Below, in pieces: positions 33,150-37,810 of a stretch of 38,972 nt of DNA (positions are counted from its first letter, which is position 1; every line of letters begins with the position of its first letter). Location: contig JAKBCO010000003.1 in the NCBI GenBank assembly GCA_021807785.1, positions 1-38,972 of the forward strand, written 5' to 3'. Source of the DNA: Pseudomonadota bacterium (GTDB lineage: Bacteria; Pseudomonadota; Alphaproteobacteria; Acetobacterales; Acetobacteraceae). A program made the position numbers and the translations under genes. Below the pieces are notes generated by a model, which did not search any database, was not told where the DNA came from, and worked only from the letters and a program-made list of their open reading frames with translations.

Positions 33150-34859
33150 ATGACCCCGACCGCGGAGGAAGCATCGGTCCCACGCGCCGGCATCGGCGTC
33201 GCCTCGCTGCCCGGCCCGCGTCCGCGCAACGAGGATTTCGCCGGCGCCATCCTCGGCGCCCGCCCGCCGGCGGAACGCCGCGACGTCGCCTGCGCCATCG
33301 CCGACGGCATCGGCAGCGCCCGCGGCGGGCGCGAGGCGGCCGAGACCGCGGTGCGCGGCTTCCTCGACGGGCTCTGGGACGTGCCGGAGACGGTGGAGCT
33401 GCGCCGCGCCGGGGCCCGCATCCTCAACGCCCTCAATTCCTGGATCCATTCCCAGGGCCGGGCCGATGCCGGCCTGGTCGGCATGGGCTGCACCTTCACC
33501 GCGCTGGTGCTGCGCGGGCGGCTCGCGCATCTCTTCCATGTCGGGGACTCGCGCGCCTATCGCCTCAGCGCCGACCGCCTGACCCGGCTGACCGACGATC
33601 ACGTCCGCGACGATCGCGGCCGGTCGCCGATGCTGACCCGCGCCCTCGGGATCGAGGCCGAGCTGCGGCTCGACTACACCACCCTCGCGGTGGCGCTGCA
33701 TGACCGGTTCCTGCTCTGCACCGACGGCGTCCACGGGGTGCTGGTGGACGAGACCATCGCCGACATCCTGCGCATCCGCTCCGCCCCCGAGGACACCGCC
33801 CGCGCCCTGGTCGCCGCCGCCCTGGACGCCGGCAGCACCGACAACTGCACCGCCCTGGTGCTGGACGTGGTCAGCCTGCCCGACCTGCGCTCGGACGACG
33901 TCGGCAGCGCGATCCGCGCCCTACCCCTGATCCCGACCCCGAATGTCGGTGAGTCCGTCGATGGGTTCGTGCTCAACACGCTGGTCTCGGACGGCACCTA
34001 CTCGCGCCTGTTCGGCGCCATCGACGAGGCCGACGGGGCGACGGTGGTGCTGAAATTCCCCAAGCCGCAGGTGGCCGCGGACGCCACCTTCCACGCCGCC
34101 TTCGTGCGCGAGGCCTGGGTGGGCAGCCGGGTCACCAGCCCCTGGGTCGCGCATGTGATCGCGCTGCCGCCCGGGCGGCAGACCTGCCTCTATACCGTCA
34201 TGCCGCTCTATGTCGGCGAATTGCTGGAAACCCGCCTCGCCCGCGCCCCCTCGATCGGTCTCGAGGAAATCCGCGGCATCGGGGTGCGCCTGGCGCAAGG
34301 GCTCGGCAGCCTGCACCGGGCGGGGATCATCCATCGCGACGTCAAGCCGGACAATGTGATGCTGGAGGCCGGGGGCAAGCTCCGGCTGCTCGATCTGGGC
34401 GTGGTCCGGCTGCCCGGTCTCGAGGATTTCCCCCCCGAGGCGATCCCCGGCACCCGCGCCTACATGGCCCCCGAGATGCTGCGCGGCGAGGCGGGCAATG
34501 TGGCGACCGACCTGTTCGCCCTGGGCGTCACCCTGTTCCGGGCCCTGACCGGCGTCTTCCCTTACGCCAACCCCGATGCGGTGACGCCGCCGCGCCTGGA
34601 GCGCCCGCGCGAACTGGCGCCGCTGCGCCCGGACCTGCCGGCCTGGCTCGGCGCGGCGCTGGCGCGCGCGATGGCGCCCGACCCGGCCGAGCGCTTCGCC
34701 GACATGGCGGAGTTCGCCGCCGAGCTGGATGCCGGACCGGCGCACGCGCCGGCGGCGCCGCGCCCGCCGACCCCCTACGAGCGCTACCGCCTGCCGTTCT
34801 GGCAGGGGCTGGCGGCGGCGCTGGCGCTGGCGCTGGCGGCCTCGCTCTGGTGGCGCTGA
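33150..34859 (+). CDS. Bifunctional PP2C-type protein phosphatase / Ser-Thr protein kinase with C-terminal membrane anchor
   Basis: PP2C: PRPRNEDF, ADGIGSARGG, GMGCTFTALVL, VGDSRAYRL, LLCTDGV, STDNCTALVL. Kinase: VVLKFPKP, IIHRDVKPDNVMLEAGGKLRLLDLGVVRL, GTRAYMAPEMLRGE. Terminal hydrophobic ALAAALALALAASLWWR. Confidence 0.94.
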   Translation: MTPTAEEASVPRAGIGVASLPGPRPRNEDFAGAILGARPPAERRDVACAIADGIGSARGGREAAETAVRGFLDGLWDVPETVELRRAGARILNALNSWIHSQGRADAGLVGMGCTFTALVLRGRLAHLFHVGDSRAYRLSADRLTRLTDDHVRDDRGRSPMLTRALGIEAELRLDYTTLAVALHDRFLLCTDGVHGVLVDETIADILRIRSAPEDTARALVAAALDAGSTDNCTALVLDVVSLPDLRSDDVGSAIRALPLIPTPNVGESVDGFVLNTLVSDGTYSRLFGAIDEADGATVVLKFPKPQVAADATFHAAFVREAWVGSRVTSPWVAHVIALPPGRQTCLYTVMPLYVGELLETRLARAPSIGLEEIRGIGVRLAQGLGSLHRAGIIHRDVKPDNVMLEAGGKLRLLDLGVVRLPGLEDFPPEAIPGTRAYMAPEMLRGEAGNVATDLFALGVTLFRALTGVFPYANPDAVTPPRLERPRELAPLRPDLPAWLGAALARAMAPDPAERFADMAEFAAELDAGPAHAPAAPRPPTPYERYRLPFWQGLAAALALALAASLWWR

Positions 34860-35475: not shown

Positions 35476-35967
35476 ATGCGCATTTCCCGTATCTTTGGCG
35501 CCTTGGCGCTGCTGGCGGCATTGGCCGCGCCGGCGGCGGCCCGGGCCGACGATCGCTCGATGCTGAAAAGCTTCGATTTCGCCAAGCCGGGCTTCGCCCA
35601 CCCGCATCCGTTCGCCATCGCCCATGCGGTGATCCAGGTGAGTTCGGGCAGCCCGGCGGTCTGGACGCAGACGCTCAACAACGTCACCAACATGCTGCAG
35701 AACCTGGGCACCGACAAAGTGCAGATCGTGGTGGTGGCCTATGGGCCGGGGCTGATGATGCTGTTCCGCGACAGCATCATGGCCCGCCGCATCGCCTCGC
35801 TCGACTCGCAGGGGGTGGAGTTCGATGCCTGCCACAACACCATGCTGGCGATGGCAAAGATGACCGGGCATCTGCCGGCGTTGCTGCCGCAGGCGGTGGT
35901 GGTGCCGGGGGGCGTGATCCGGATCATGCAGCTGGAGCAGCACGGATTCGATTATCTGAAGCCGTGA
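35476..35967 (+). CDS. Exported DsrE-family protein
   Basis: Signal peptide MRISRIFGALALLAALAAPAAARA; VVVAYGPGLMMLFRDS, GVEFDACHNTMLAM, LPQAVVVPGGVIRIMQLEQHGFDYLKP. Confidence 0.87.
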   Translation: MRISRIFGALALLAALAAPAAARADDRSMLKSFDFAKPGFAHPHPFAIAHAVIQVSSGSPAVWTQTLNNVTNMLQNLGTDKVQIVVVAYGPGLMMLFRDSIMARRIASLDSQGVEFDACHNTMLAMAKMTGHLPALLPQAVVVPGGVIRIMQLEQHGFDYLKP

Positions 35968-35981
35968 GGGGAGGGGGCGGA

Positions 35982-36470
35982 TCAGGCGATATCGCCGCTC
36001 TTGATCTGCCGGCCGACGAACTTGATGCCATTCTGCGCCAGACGGAGGGTCGCCGGTTCGAGCGGATGCAAATCCACGCGCCCCGAGGCTACCCAAAGCC
36101 AACGCGAAACCCGTGCTCCGTCCCTCAGATGATCGCGCAGCTGGGTCAGCGCGGCTTCTCGCTTGTCGATGACCCTGCGGACTTGATCGTTCCTGGCCGA
36201 GTGGGTTTCCACCGCGATCAGCTGGCGGGTGGGGTCATGCCCGAGCAGGTAATCCCATCGGTTTGCCTGGGGATATTGGGGTTTAAGCTCCGTATCGATA
36301 TCCAGGCTGTCGCCGAACGACGTCCGGATGTCGTCGGCAAAACAGCCGCGATGGGGCGCGGCGATTGCCCCGAGCCCGTCCTTGACGGATCGATGTAACA
36401 TGGACACCGCCCTGAGCGCGGCGCGAACGGGAGTGGCGGCAGCGGGCTTCGGATGACGGGACCGGCTCAC
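35982..36470 (-). CDS. Uncharacterised small protein, translationally coupled partner of ABC-type ATPase
   Basis: GTG start in a 4-bp overlap (GTGA) with the ATPase stop; coherent globular sequence WDYLLGHDPTRQLIAVETHSARNDQVRRVIDKREAALTQL ... RWLWVASGRVDLHPLEPATLRLAQNGIKFVGRQI. Confidence 0.8.
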   Translation of the reverse strand: MSRSRHPKPAAATPVRAALRAVSMLHRSVKDGLGAIAAPHRGCFADDIRTSFGDSLDIDTELKPQYPQANRWDYLLGHDPTRQLIAVETHSARNDQVRRVIDKREAALTQLRDHLRDGARVSRWLWVASGRVDLHPLEPATLRLAQNGIKFVGRQIKSGDIA

Positions 36471-37669
36471 GGGGTGCTCATGTTCACCGCATCACGGACC
36501 GCATCGGCGAAACGGGCGGAATAGCTGGTAAGCCCACCCCATCCGGCAACGCGCGGATCATCCGAGCTCGGGTCAAGGGTTGAGATATCGACCGAGGTCA
36601 CCTTGCCGTCGTCACGGAACTGCATCAGGAACGCGCGGTAATCCTTGGCCAACGCCGTCTCGGCGACGGCACGCATCGGCTGCTGCTTCACGTCGAATGC
36701 CTCGCATACACTTTTCCACTGGGCGGACCGCGTCCGCAATTGCCGCATCAACCAGACCAACGAAAGGACGTGCGGAGAATGGGTCGAGAGGACGACCCGG
36801 TAGCCACGCCAGATCAGATCGAGGACCAGCAGCAGAACCGCGGTGATCGCCTGTGGGTGCAGGCCCATTTCGGGCTCCTCTATCACCACCCAGTTGACCA
36901 AGTCGATCTTGCGCTTGCTTGTCCGCGGCAGCAGATGATAAAGGCCCAACAGCAGCGGCGTGAATTCCCGTTGTCCGGCGGTCCAGGTCATGAAGGGCAG
37001 ATGGATCTCCCCGTGGACCAGCCGCAGCCGCAAGGCATGGTTCGTATCTTCCTCAATTCCGACGGTGCCGCCGTGAAAAACGGCGGCGTCGATCTTTTCA
37101 CGGATTTCCTGCTTTAATCTCCGTTCTACGGGGAACAGGGTTCCGGCATCCTTGGTCTGGAAACGATCATAGAGATTCTGGCTGAAGAGACGCGCAACAA
37201 CCGGTACATCCGCGGTCAGCTTCTGAAACGGAGCAGCCCAGCCATCGCTGATCAACAACGAGCGATGCGCGGGAATGAAGAAAAGTTCTTCCTGCCCCGT
37301 CCCGCGCCGCGCGATGCCGCTTGGTGTAATGGACACGTTATCGAACCGGATCTCGGTCGACCCCGAATGCCAGTCCTTTGCCATCCCGGAACCGAAAATT
37401 AGATCGATCAACGCATCCGGCCGATCGGTCGGATGCCCGGCGTCACGCAACGCCTCGACGATCTGCCGTCCGTCCATGGCGATCTTGAGCCACTGCAGGG
37501 CCAAGCTTTTGCCCGCGCCTTGCGGCCCTACGAGGATCGTCAGATCCCCGAACGAAAGATCGACCTCGGCCAGATGCGCGAAATTCTTGATCCGCAGCGA
37601 GACAGCCGTGTCGGGTTGCGCCCGTGCGGTCCGTCTGGTCCTTGTCGTCGCTTGTCTGGGGGGCCGCAT
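36467..37669 (-). CDS. ABC/SMC-type AAA family ATPase (defence-like)
   Basis: LTILVGPQGAGKSLALQWLKIAM (Walker A), MTWTAGQREFTPLLLGLYHLL (signature-like), VVIEEPEMGLHPQAI (Walker B), VVLSTHSPHVLSLVWLMRQL. Confidence 0.9.
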   Translation of the reverse strand: MRPPRQATTRTRRTARAQPDTAVSLRIKNFAHLAEVDLSFGDLTILVGPQGAGKSLALQWLKIAMDGRQIVEALRDAGHPTDRPDALIDLIFGSGMAKDWHSGSTEIRFDNVSITPSGIARRGTGQEELFFIPAHRSLLISDGWAAPFQKLTADVPVVARLFSQNLYDRFQTKDAGTLFPVERRLKQEIREKIDAAVFHGGTVGIEEDTNHALRLRLVHGEIHLPFMTWTAGQREFTPLLLGLYHLLPRTSKRKIDLVNWVVIEEPEMGLHPQAITAVLLLVLDLIWRGYRVVLSTHSPHVLSLVWLMRQLRTRSAQWKSVCEAFDVKQQPMRAVAETALAKDYRAFLMQFRDDGKVTSVDISTLDPSSDDPRVAGWGGLTSYSARFADAVRDAVNMSTP

Positions 37670-37810
37670 CCGGAGGAGTCCGCTCGCAATCTAGTCGGCC
37701 TTGTAGCGCCCTGCCGGATGATTGGCCACTTGCGCCCGGAGCCCCCCACCCTTCCCCCGCCGCCGCGAATCCCCCACCCTGCCGCCAACAGGTCCGGGGG
37801 AAGCAGTCTC

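Follow-up and report, generated by a model that had tools for sequence, protein, structure and literature searches.

A Septu-like ATPase and its small, predicted PD-(D/E)xK-type partner from an Acetobacteraceae genome match the candidate defence system PDC-M56

Described systems and the gene pair in the window

In PARIS, a neutralising ATPase (AriA) acts together with a toxin (AriB) that is released on infection. Other described systems close to the present locus are Gabija (GajA) and OLD, in which an ATPase of the same superfamily carries a Toprim nuclease domain, and Septu, in which a short ABC ATPase without Toprim (PtuA) is combined with a small, separate HNH nuclease (PtuB); the PtuAB of retron Ec78/Eco7 were grouped with Septu for comparison. 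Septu cleaves tRNA-Tyr upon infection (PMC13096335).

The locus lies on contig JAKBCO010000003.1 from a member of the Acetobacteraceae, positions 1 to 38,972 of which, the whole stretch of 38,972 nucleotides analysed, are called the window. Two overlapping genes, designated A and B, were read from its minus strand:

36467 to 37669, minus strand: gene A, ORF with ATG start, 400-aa ABC/OLD-type ATPase (PDC-M56A)
35982 to 36470, minus strand: gene B, ORF with GTG start, 162 aa, predicted PD-(D/E)xK-type core (PDC-M56B)
36467 to 36470, minus strand: GTGA overlap of the A stop and the B start, read from the sequence

The initial annotation had described an ABC-type ATPase followed, across a GTGA overlap, by a protein of about 162 aa, without giving the strand, and both reading frames were present. 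Its further suggestion of a stoichiometric pair was not sustained, the overlap being support for translational coupling only. A drop in G-C relative to the flanking genes, first noted by eye, was confirmed: the pair had 61.7% G-C against 72.0 ± 3.4% for the contig in 1.7-kb windows, the lowest of 373, while third-position G-C was 0.74 in both A and B against 0.88–0.93 in their neighbours. Recent acquisition, also proposed in that annotation, was counted as supported.

The genes flanking the pair were ordinary, namely those for a DsrE-like protein on the left and for a GMC oxidoreductase on the right. The GMC gene of a congeneric genome (G668) is preceded by RNase E/G-like, Maf-like and HisD-like genes (named by eye), and DNA homology to this genome started at window position 37,732, which is 63 bp upstream of the A start; synteny is therefore broken at the right edge of the cassette. 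The search for an empty site among relatives of the host found some with the DsrE-like gene of the left side and others with the GMC oxidoreductase of the right side, but none with both, and so only the right boundary of the cassette was defined. The DsrE-like protein itself (window 35476–35967, plus strand) had relatives, 54–59% identical, in few genomes of the family only. Also close to the pair (window 33150–34859, plus strand) was a gene for a 569-aa protein that appeared by eye to join a PP2C-like phosphatase to a Ser/Thr kinase and to carry a membrane segment at its C terminus.

Comparison with PADLOC-DB 2.0.0 identified A as PDC-M56A (E = 8.3e-117, 388 bits; profile positions 3–378 of 382, residues 24–395 of 400) and B as PDC-M56B (E = 2.2e-22; profile positions 9–147 of 151, residues 16–155 of 162). 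Gene order was the same and the matches were near full-length; nothing distinguished the window pair from PDC-M56 at the family level. All 70 scanned homologues of B matched PDC-M56B, the window copy being divergent (2e-22, against 3e-63 for the best). For B, the candidate is represented in none of Pfam, NCBIfam and PDB: no family was found in the first two, and PDB sequence searches, with the single sequence and with a profile, returned nothing credible. PDCs were proposed through 'guilt-by-embedding', and validation is reported to be pending for most PDCs of the core defensome (PMC12988326). A search of the open literature for the PDC-M56 names found no paper naming it and no experimental test; the pair is thus named, but as a candidate only. 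The initial annotation had held that the pair fits none of the named systems, and had listed identity with one as evidence against its reading. The first statement stands for Septu, PARIS and Gabija and fails for the PADLOC catalogue; an identity was indeed found, solely with PDC-M56, a candidate for which the search found no experimental test.

Predicted structures and the candidate active site of B

The ATPase motifs that had been quoted for A were all found, and the catalytic residues were invariant across 63 homologues, to which the conservation given below refers:

37505 to 37528, minus strand: Walker A, G48PQGAGKS55; G48, Q50, G53, K54 and S55 invariant
36962 to 36982, minus strand: signature-like motif TAGQREF (residues 230–236); G232, Q233 and E235 invariant
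36854 to 36889, minus strand: Walker B, VVIEEPEMGLHP region (residues 261–272); E264, E265, E267, G269, L270 and H271 invariant
36770 to 36787, minus strand: H-loop STHSPH (residues 295–300); H297 and S298 invariant
36530 to 36544, minus strand: C-terminal family motif GWGGL (residues 376–380); W377 and G379 invariant, G378 and L380 conserved in at least 90%

Pfam assigned A to AAA_15 (1.5e-15) and also to AAA_21. The AF2 model of A (pLDDT 93.7) was a compact ABC ATPase head, for which the best PDB fold match was PtuA of Septu (E = 6.4e-10), followed by the heads of SMC, Rad50 and RecN. This model ended at residue 398, beyond the ATPase fold, and no Toprim family was matched, which agrees with the earlier reading that the ATPase lacks a C-terminal TOPRIM domain. 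Similarly, B had no match to any HNH or Toprim family, as had been anticipated from the lack of either motif.

The AF2 model of B was of high confidence (pLDDT 97.0, pTM 0.89). Its beta-beta-beta-alpha-beta order of elements was that of PD-(D/E)xK proteins, and the alpha-beta-beta-beta-alpha-beta core was found when looked for in the model. The features concerned were as follows, with conservation given for 70 homologues:

36090 to 36317, minus strand: core of B, by DSSP on the AF2 model; strands 52–57, 74–78 and 83–89, helix 94–112, strand 121–127
36252 to 36254, minus strand: D73 (in RWDY), candidate metal ligand, invariant in 70 of 70
36201 to 36209, minus strand: E88-x-H90, with E88 a candidate metal ligand and His at the usual place of the (D/E)xK Lys; E88 and H90 invariant in 70 of 70
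36162 to 36164, minus strand: K103, in helix 94–112, candidate relocated basic catalytic or substrate-contact residue, invariant in 70 of 70

Mean column identity in the B family was 27%, and D73, E88, H90 and K103 were among the most conserved residues across these homologues; W126 was also invariant, and K103 stood 14–16 residues past E88 in every sequence. PD-(D/E)xK sites normally have a catalytic Lys two residues after the Glu. This hallmark was absent from B, where His occupied the position in 70 of 70. APOBEC and other deaminases, which were also returned as fold matches of B, require H-x-E plus zinc-binding Cys residues; these are missing from B, and the matches were rejected. The best PDB fold matches were nucleases of the PD-(D/E)xK superfamily, namely Cdn1 (prob 0.99), Card1 (0.96), the Avs4 nuclease, Can2, PspGI and EcoT38I, and those from the viral library included Mrr, RecB-family proteins and restriction endonucleases. 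Scores were modest (best E = 7e-3, none below 0.001; TM-score 0.34 for the best and about 0.3–0.4 overall, for the core only), and identity to solved PD-(D/E)xK effectors was 9–16% in the aligned core. The conserved site of Cdn1 consists of E274, D310, E323 and K325 (PMC12825302), and the D73...E88-x-H90 of B, in which E88 stands 15 residues after D73, shows the same spacing pattern as D310...E323-x-K325.

Judged from the model, the fold matches and the comparison with Cdn1, the predicted fold and the positions of the metal ligands support the PD-(D/E)xK reading, and one defining residue is replaced. The initial annotation had speculated about a divergent PD-(D/E)xK-like core of the form 'D...ExH', and both the predicted fold and the invariance of D73, E88 and H90 now speak for it. 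The best reading of B is that of a putative PD-(D/E)xK-type nuclease subunit whose site, D73 / E88-x-H90 / K103, is non-canonical; however, catalysis is not guaranteed, because every member has His in place of the canonical catalytic Lys. Should B prove to be active as a nuclease despite this exchange, the catalytic repertoire of the PD-(D/E)xK fold would be extended.

The same substitution, found in 70 of 70 members, would also fit a B that has a PD-(D/E)xK-like fold but is not a nuclease, and that instead binds DNA or serves as an adaptor through which A recognises or blocks DNA in the manner of SMC/Wadjet or RecF; defence would then be independent of cleavage by B. Non-catalytic nuclease-like domains do exist, for instance in Can1, where the domain is without canonical active-site residues (PMC7969007), and A also resembles SMC and Rad50 heads. 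Yet D73, E88, H90 and K103 are the most conserved positions in a family of 27% identity, which is typical of an active site and not of a scaffold, and a non-catalytic B is regarded as unlikely.

With both proteins characterized as above, the pair shares with Septu a short ABC ATPase without Toprim and a small, separate nuclease-like protein, and PtuA is the best structural match of A. However, the PtuA models were distant (PADLOC 4e-9; NCBIfam 7e-6, 25 bits, below the cut-off of 500), and PtuB is an HNH nuclease whereas B is without the HNH motif and has a predicted PD-(D/E)xK-type fold. The two-gene plan of PARIS, ATPase plus effector, is also similar, and A matched the AriA models at 1e-17 through the common AAA_15 domain; this was far below the score for PDC-M56A, while B lacks the Toprim of AriB (DUF4435) and matched PDC-M56B only. 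Similarity to Gabija and OLD extends to the ATPase superfamily (GajA 2e-11; OLD 1e-15), but A, at 400 aa, has no Toprim nuclease domain and no UvrD-like GajB stands beside the pair. B resembles Cdn1, Card1, Can2 and the Avs4 nuclease domain in its predicted fold and D...E-x-(K/H) spacing, and differs from them in having no CARF or STAND sensor attached and in the replacement of Lys by His. By analogy, A-B would work most like Septu, but it is not Septu.

Pairing, spread and defence-operon contexts

Loci with A were collected by scanning one genome per species. The 80 close A loci came from Pseudomonadota, Myxococcota, Planctomycetota, Cyanobacteriota, Bacteroidota, Verrucomicrobiota, Chloroflexota and other phyla. 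B followed A directly in 75 of 83 loci, and 52 of these 75 had the identical 4-bp overlap. Among the remaining eight, three (L041, L044 and L084) had degraded pieces of B, one (L047) had B in another frame and one (L024) was cut by the contig end; no B was detectable at L038, at L058 and on the fragmentary L093. The distances between A sequences were correlated with those between B sequences (Mantel r = 0.79; highest value among 2000 permutations, 0.16), the permutation not correcting for shared ancestry. The A tree required 28 changes of phylum, against a minimum of 12, and placed A of the window as sister to a phage-borne A (support 99/98). In the order, one genome in 250 carried B, and in the class, two in 385. 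Pairing, co-divergence, the cross-phylum tree and sparse spread together are what two genes that are mobile and dispensable would show, and A-B is a real, mobile, co-evolving pair.

Decayed copies were also observed: A had 10 internal stops in L041 and 13 in L044, and B was truncated in L041, L044 and L084, consistent with gain and loss. At L038 (5582–7702), a PDC-M56A-type ATPase without detectable B was followed by a PDC-M41A protein (E = 3.6e-121), a possible swap of partner.

Strict pairing, with the weak match of A to the AriA models (PADLOC E = 1e-17), could also be expected of a module resembling toxin-antitoxin systems, with B as a toxin that the ATPase A neutralises until infection releases it, as in PARIS. 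This explanation overlaps the one preferred below, but the killing falls on the host. B is without a Toprim motif or family match; loci with A but not B are rare, among them L038 and L058, where no B was detectable. Such a module is thought fairly unlikely. The likeness of A to Rad50, RecN and SMC heads, and the many copies among ordinary genes, would fit a housekeeping pair for DNA repair or chromosome maintenance, of RecN/RecF/Rad50 type and unrelated to phage. However, the sparse distribution in the order and class, the cross-phylum tree, the G-C drop, the decayed copies, the copies on phage and plasmid, and the insertions into DISARM, Hma and R-M operons all conflict with that role, which is largely refuted and retains only a minimal probability.

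Most copies of A-B were solitary among ordinary genes and not in defence islands. One observation that the initial annotation had listed as counting against its reading, a housekeeping neighbourhood for every homologue, was nevertheless not borne out, since several copies lay inside defence operons. All of these were on the same strand as the genes around them: DrmD-DrmMI-A-B-DrmA-DrmB in a DISARM operon (L036), HmaA...HmaB-A-B-HmaC in an Hma operon (L090), and HsdR-HsdS-A-B-HsdM (L080) and HsdR-HsdS-A-B (L081) in type I R-M operons. Also on the same strand, A-B followed a type IIG R-M enzyme in L062, and a DpdE-like helicase and methyltransferase in L017. Matches to PD-T4-6 and mad6 kinases among neighbours were discounted as generic kinases. 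These scans were simple tallies without a matched background, from which no enrichment statistic is claimed; even so, the presence of A-B inside several unrelated defence systems is hard to explain otherwise than by a shared role in defence.

The likely explanation is that A-B is a mobile anti-phage (or anti-mobile-element) module of PDC-M56 type, a Septu-like, ATPase-gated pair with B as its PD-(D/E)xK-type effector. A would be a Septu/Rad50-like ATPase, probably assembled in an ATP-dependent manner into a dimer or a larger ring and holding B in the way that PtuB is held by PtuA. Infection may alter the ATP state of A, or A may bind a phage feature; either event would release or position B, and the activated B would then cut DNA or RNA, so stopping the phage or the infected cell. 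Given the cleavage of tRNA-Tyr by Septu and of RNA by Cdn1 (PMC12825302), RNA and DNA are equally plausible as substrates. More tentatively, PDC-M56 may possibly constitute a distinct class of ATPase-gated nuclease defence, with the Septu plan, a PD-(D/E)xK-type effector and a rearranged D / E-x-H / helix-K site, occurring both as phage or plasmid cargo in its own right and as an addition built into DISARM, Hma and type I R-M operons. The A-B pairing counts, co-divergence, cross-phylum tree, defence-operon and phage-cargo contexts, and the fold and invariant residues of B are new here; a catalogued candidate thereby acquires a testable mechanism, with a predicted fold and active site for B, a defined partner ATPase and natural contexts.

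Phage and plasmid copies

The phage copy of A-B is known from one metagenomic contig in IMG/VR (L007/L122), which encodes a head-tail adaptor, the major head protein and tail proteins. Intact A-B lay in inverse orientation between the scaffold-like and major-head genes (L122:4831–6814). Three further contigs (L123, L124 and L125) were 80–87% identical to L122 on both sides of this position, and L125 (6743–6817) displayed the empty site, with only 73 bp between the scaffold-like and major-head genes. The interval is a swappable cargo site, and A-B moves as a unit; it also offers a practical place to seek other defence genes. At the same site, L123 (5067–6814) contained 1.7 kb of unrelated sequence, by eye an FRG-domain-like protein and a small membrane-like protein, and L124 (4022–6796) contained 2.8 kb, also unrelated, by eye a BRO-N-like gene and a further gene of no assigned function.

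Since the copy nearest to that of the window in the tree is carried by a phage, at a variable cargo site, A-B might be a selfish or phage counter-defence module, for superinfection exclusion or directed against the host, that is only secondarily present in genomes. Most copies are chromosomal, however, and several belong to operons of host defence systems; A was on just two viral contigs in the viral search and in none of the INPHARED phages. Superinfection exclusion would itself be defence against competing phages. A phage module is accordingly very unlikely. Searching the 385 genomes of the class for the phage head protein, as a clue to host range, found nothing.

In the plasmid collection, A occurred on one plasmid, CP007054 (Opitutaceae), with B downstream; searching the same collection with B gave no match. 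The B homologue after A on this plasmid (L008:8243–8740) had no CDS in the PLSDB gene table, and small B genes may thus escape annotation.
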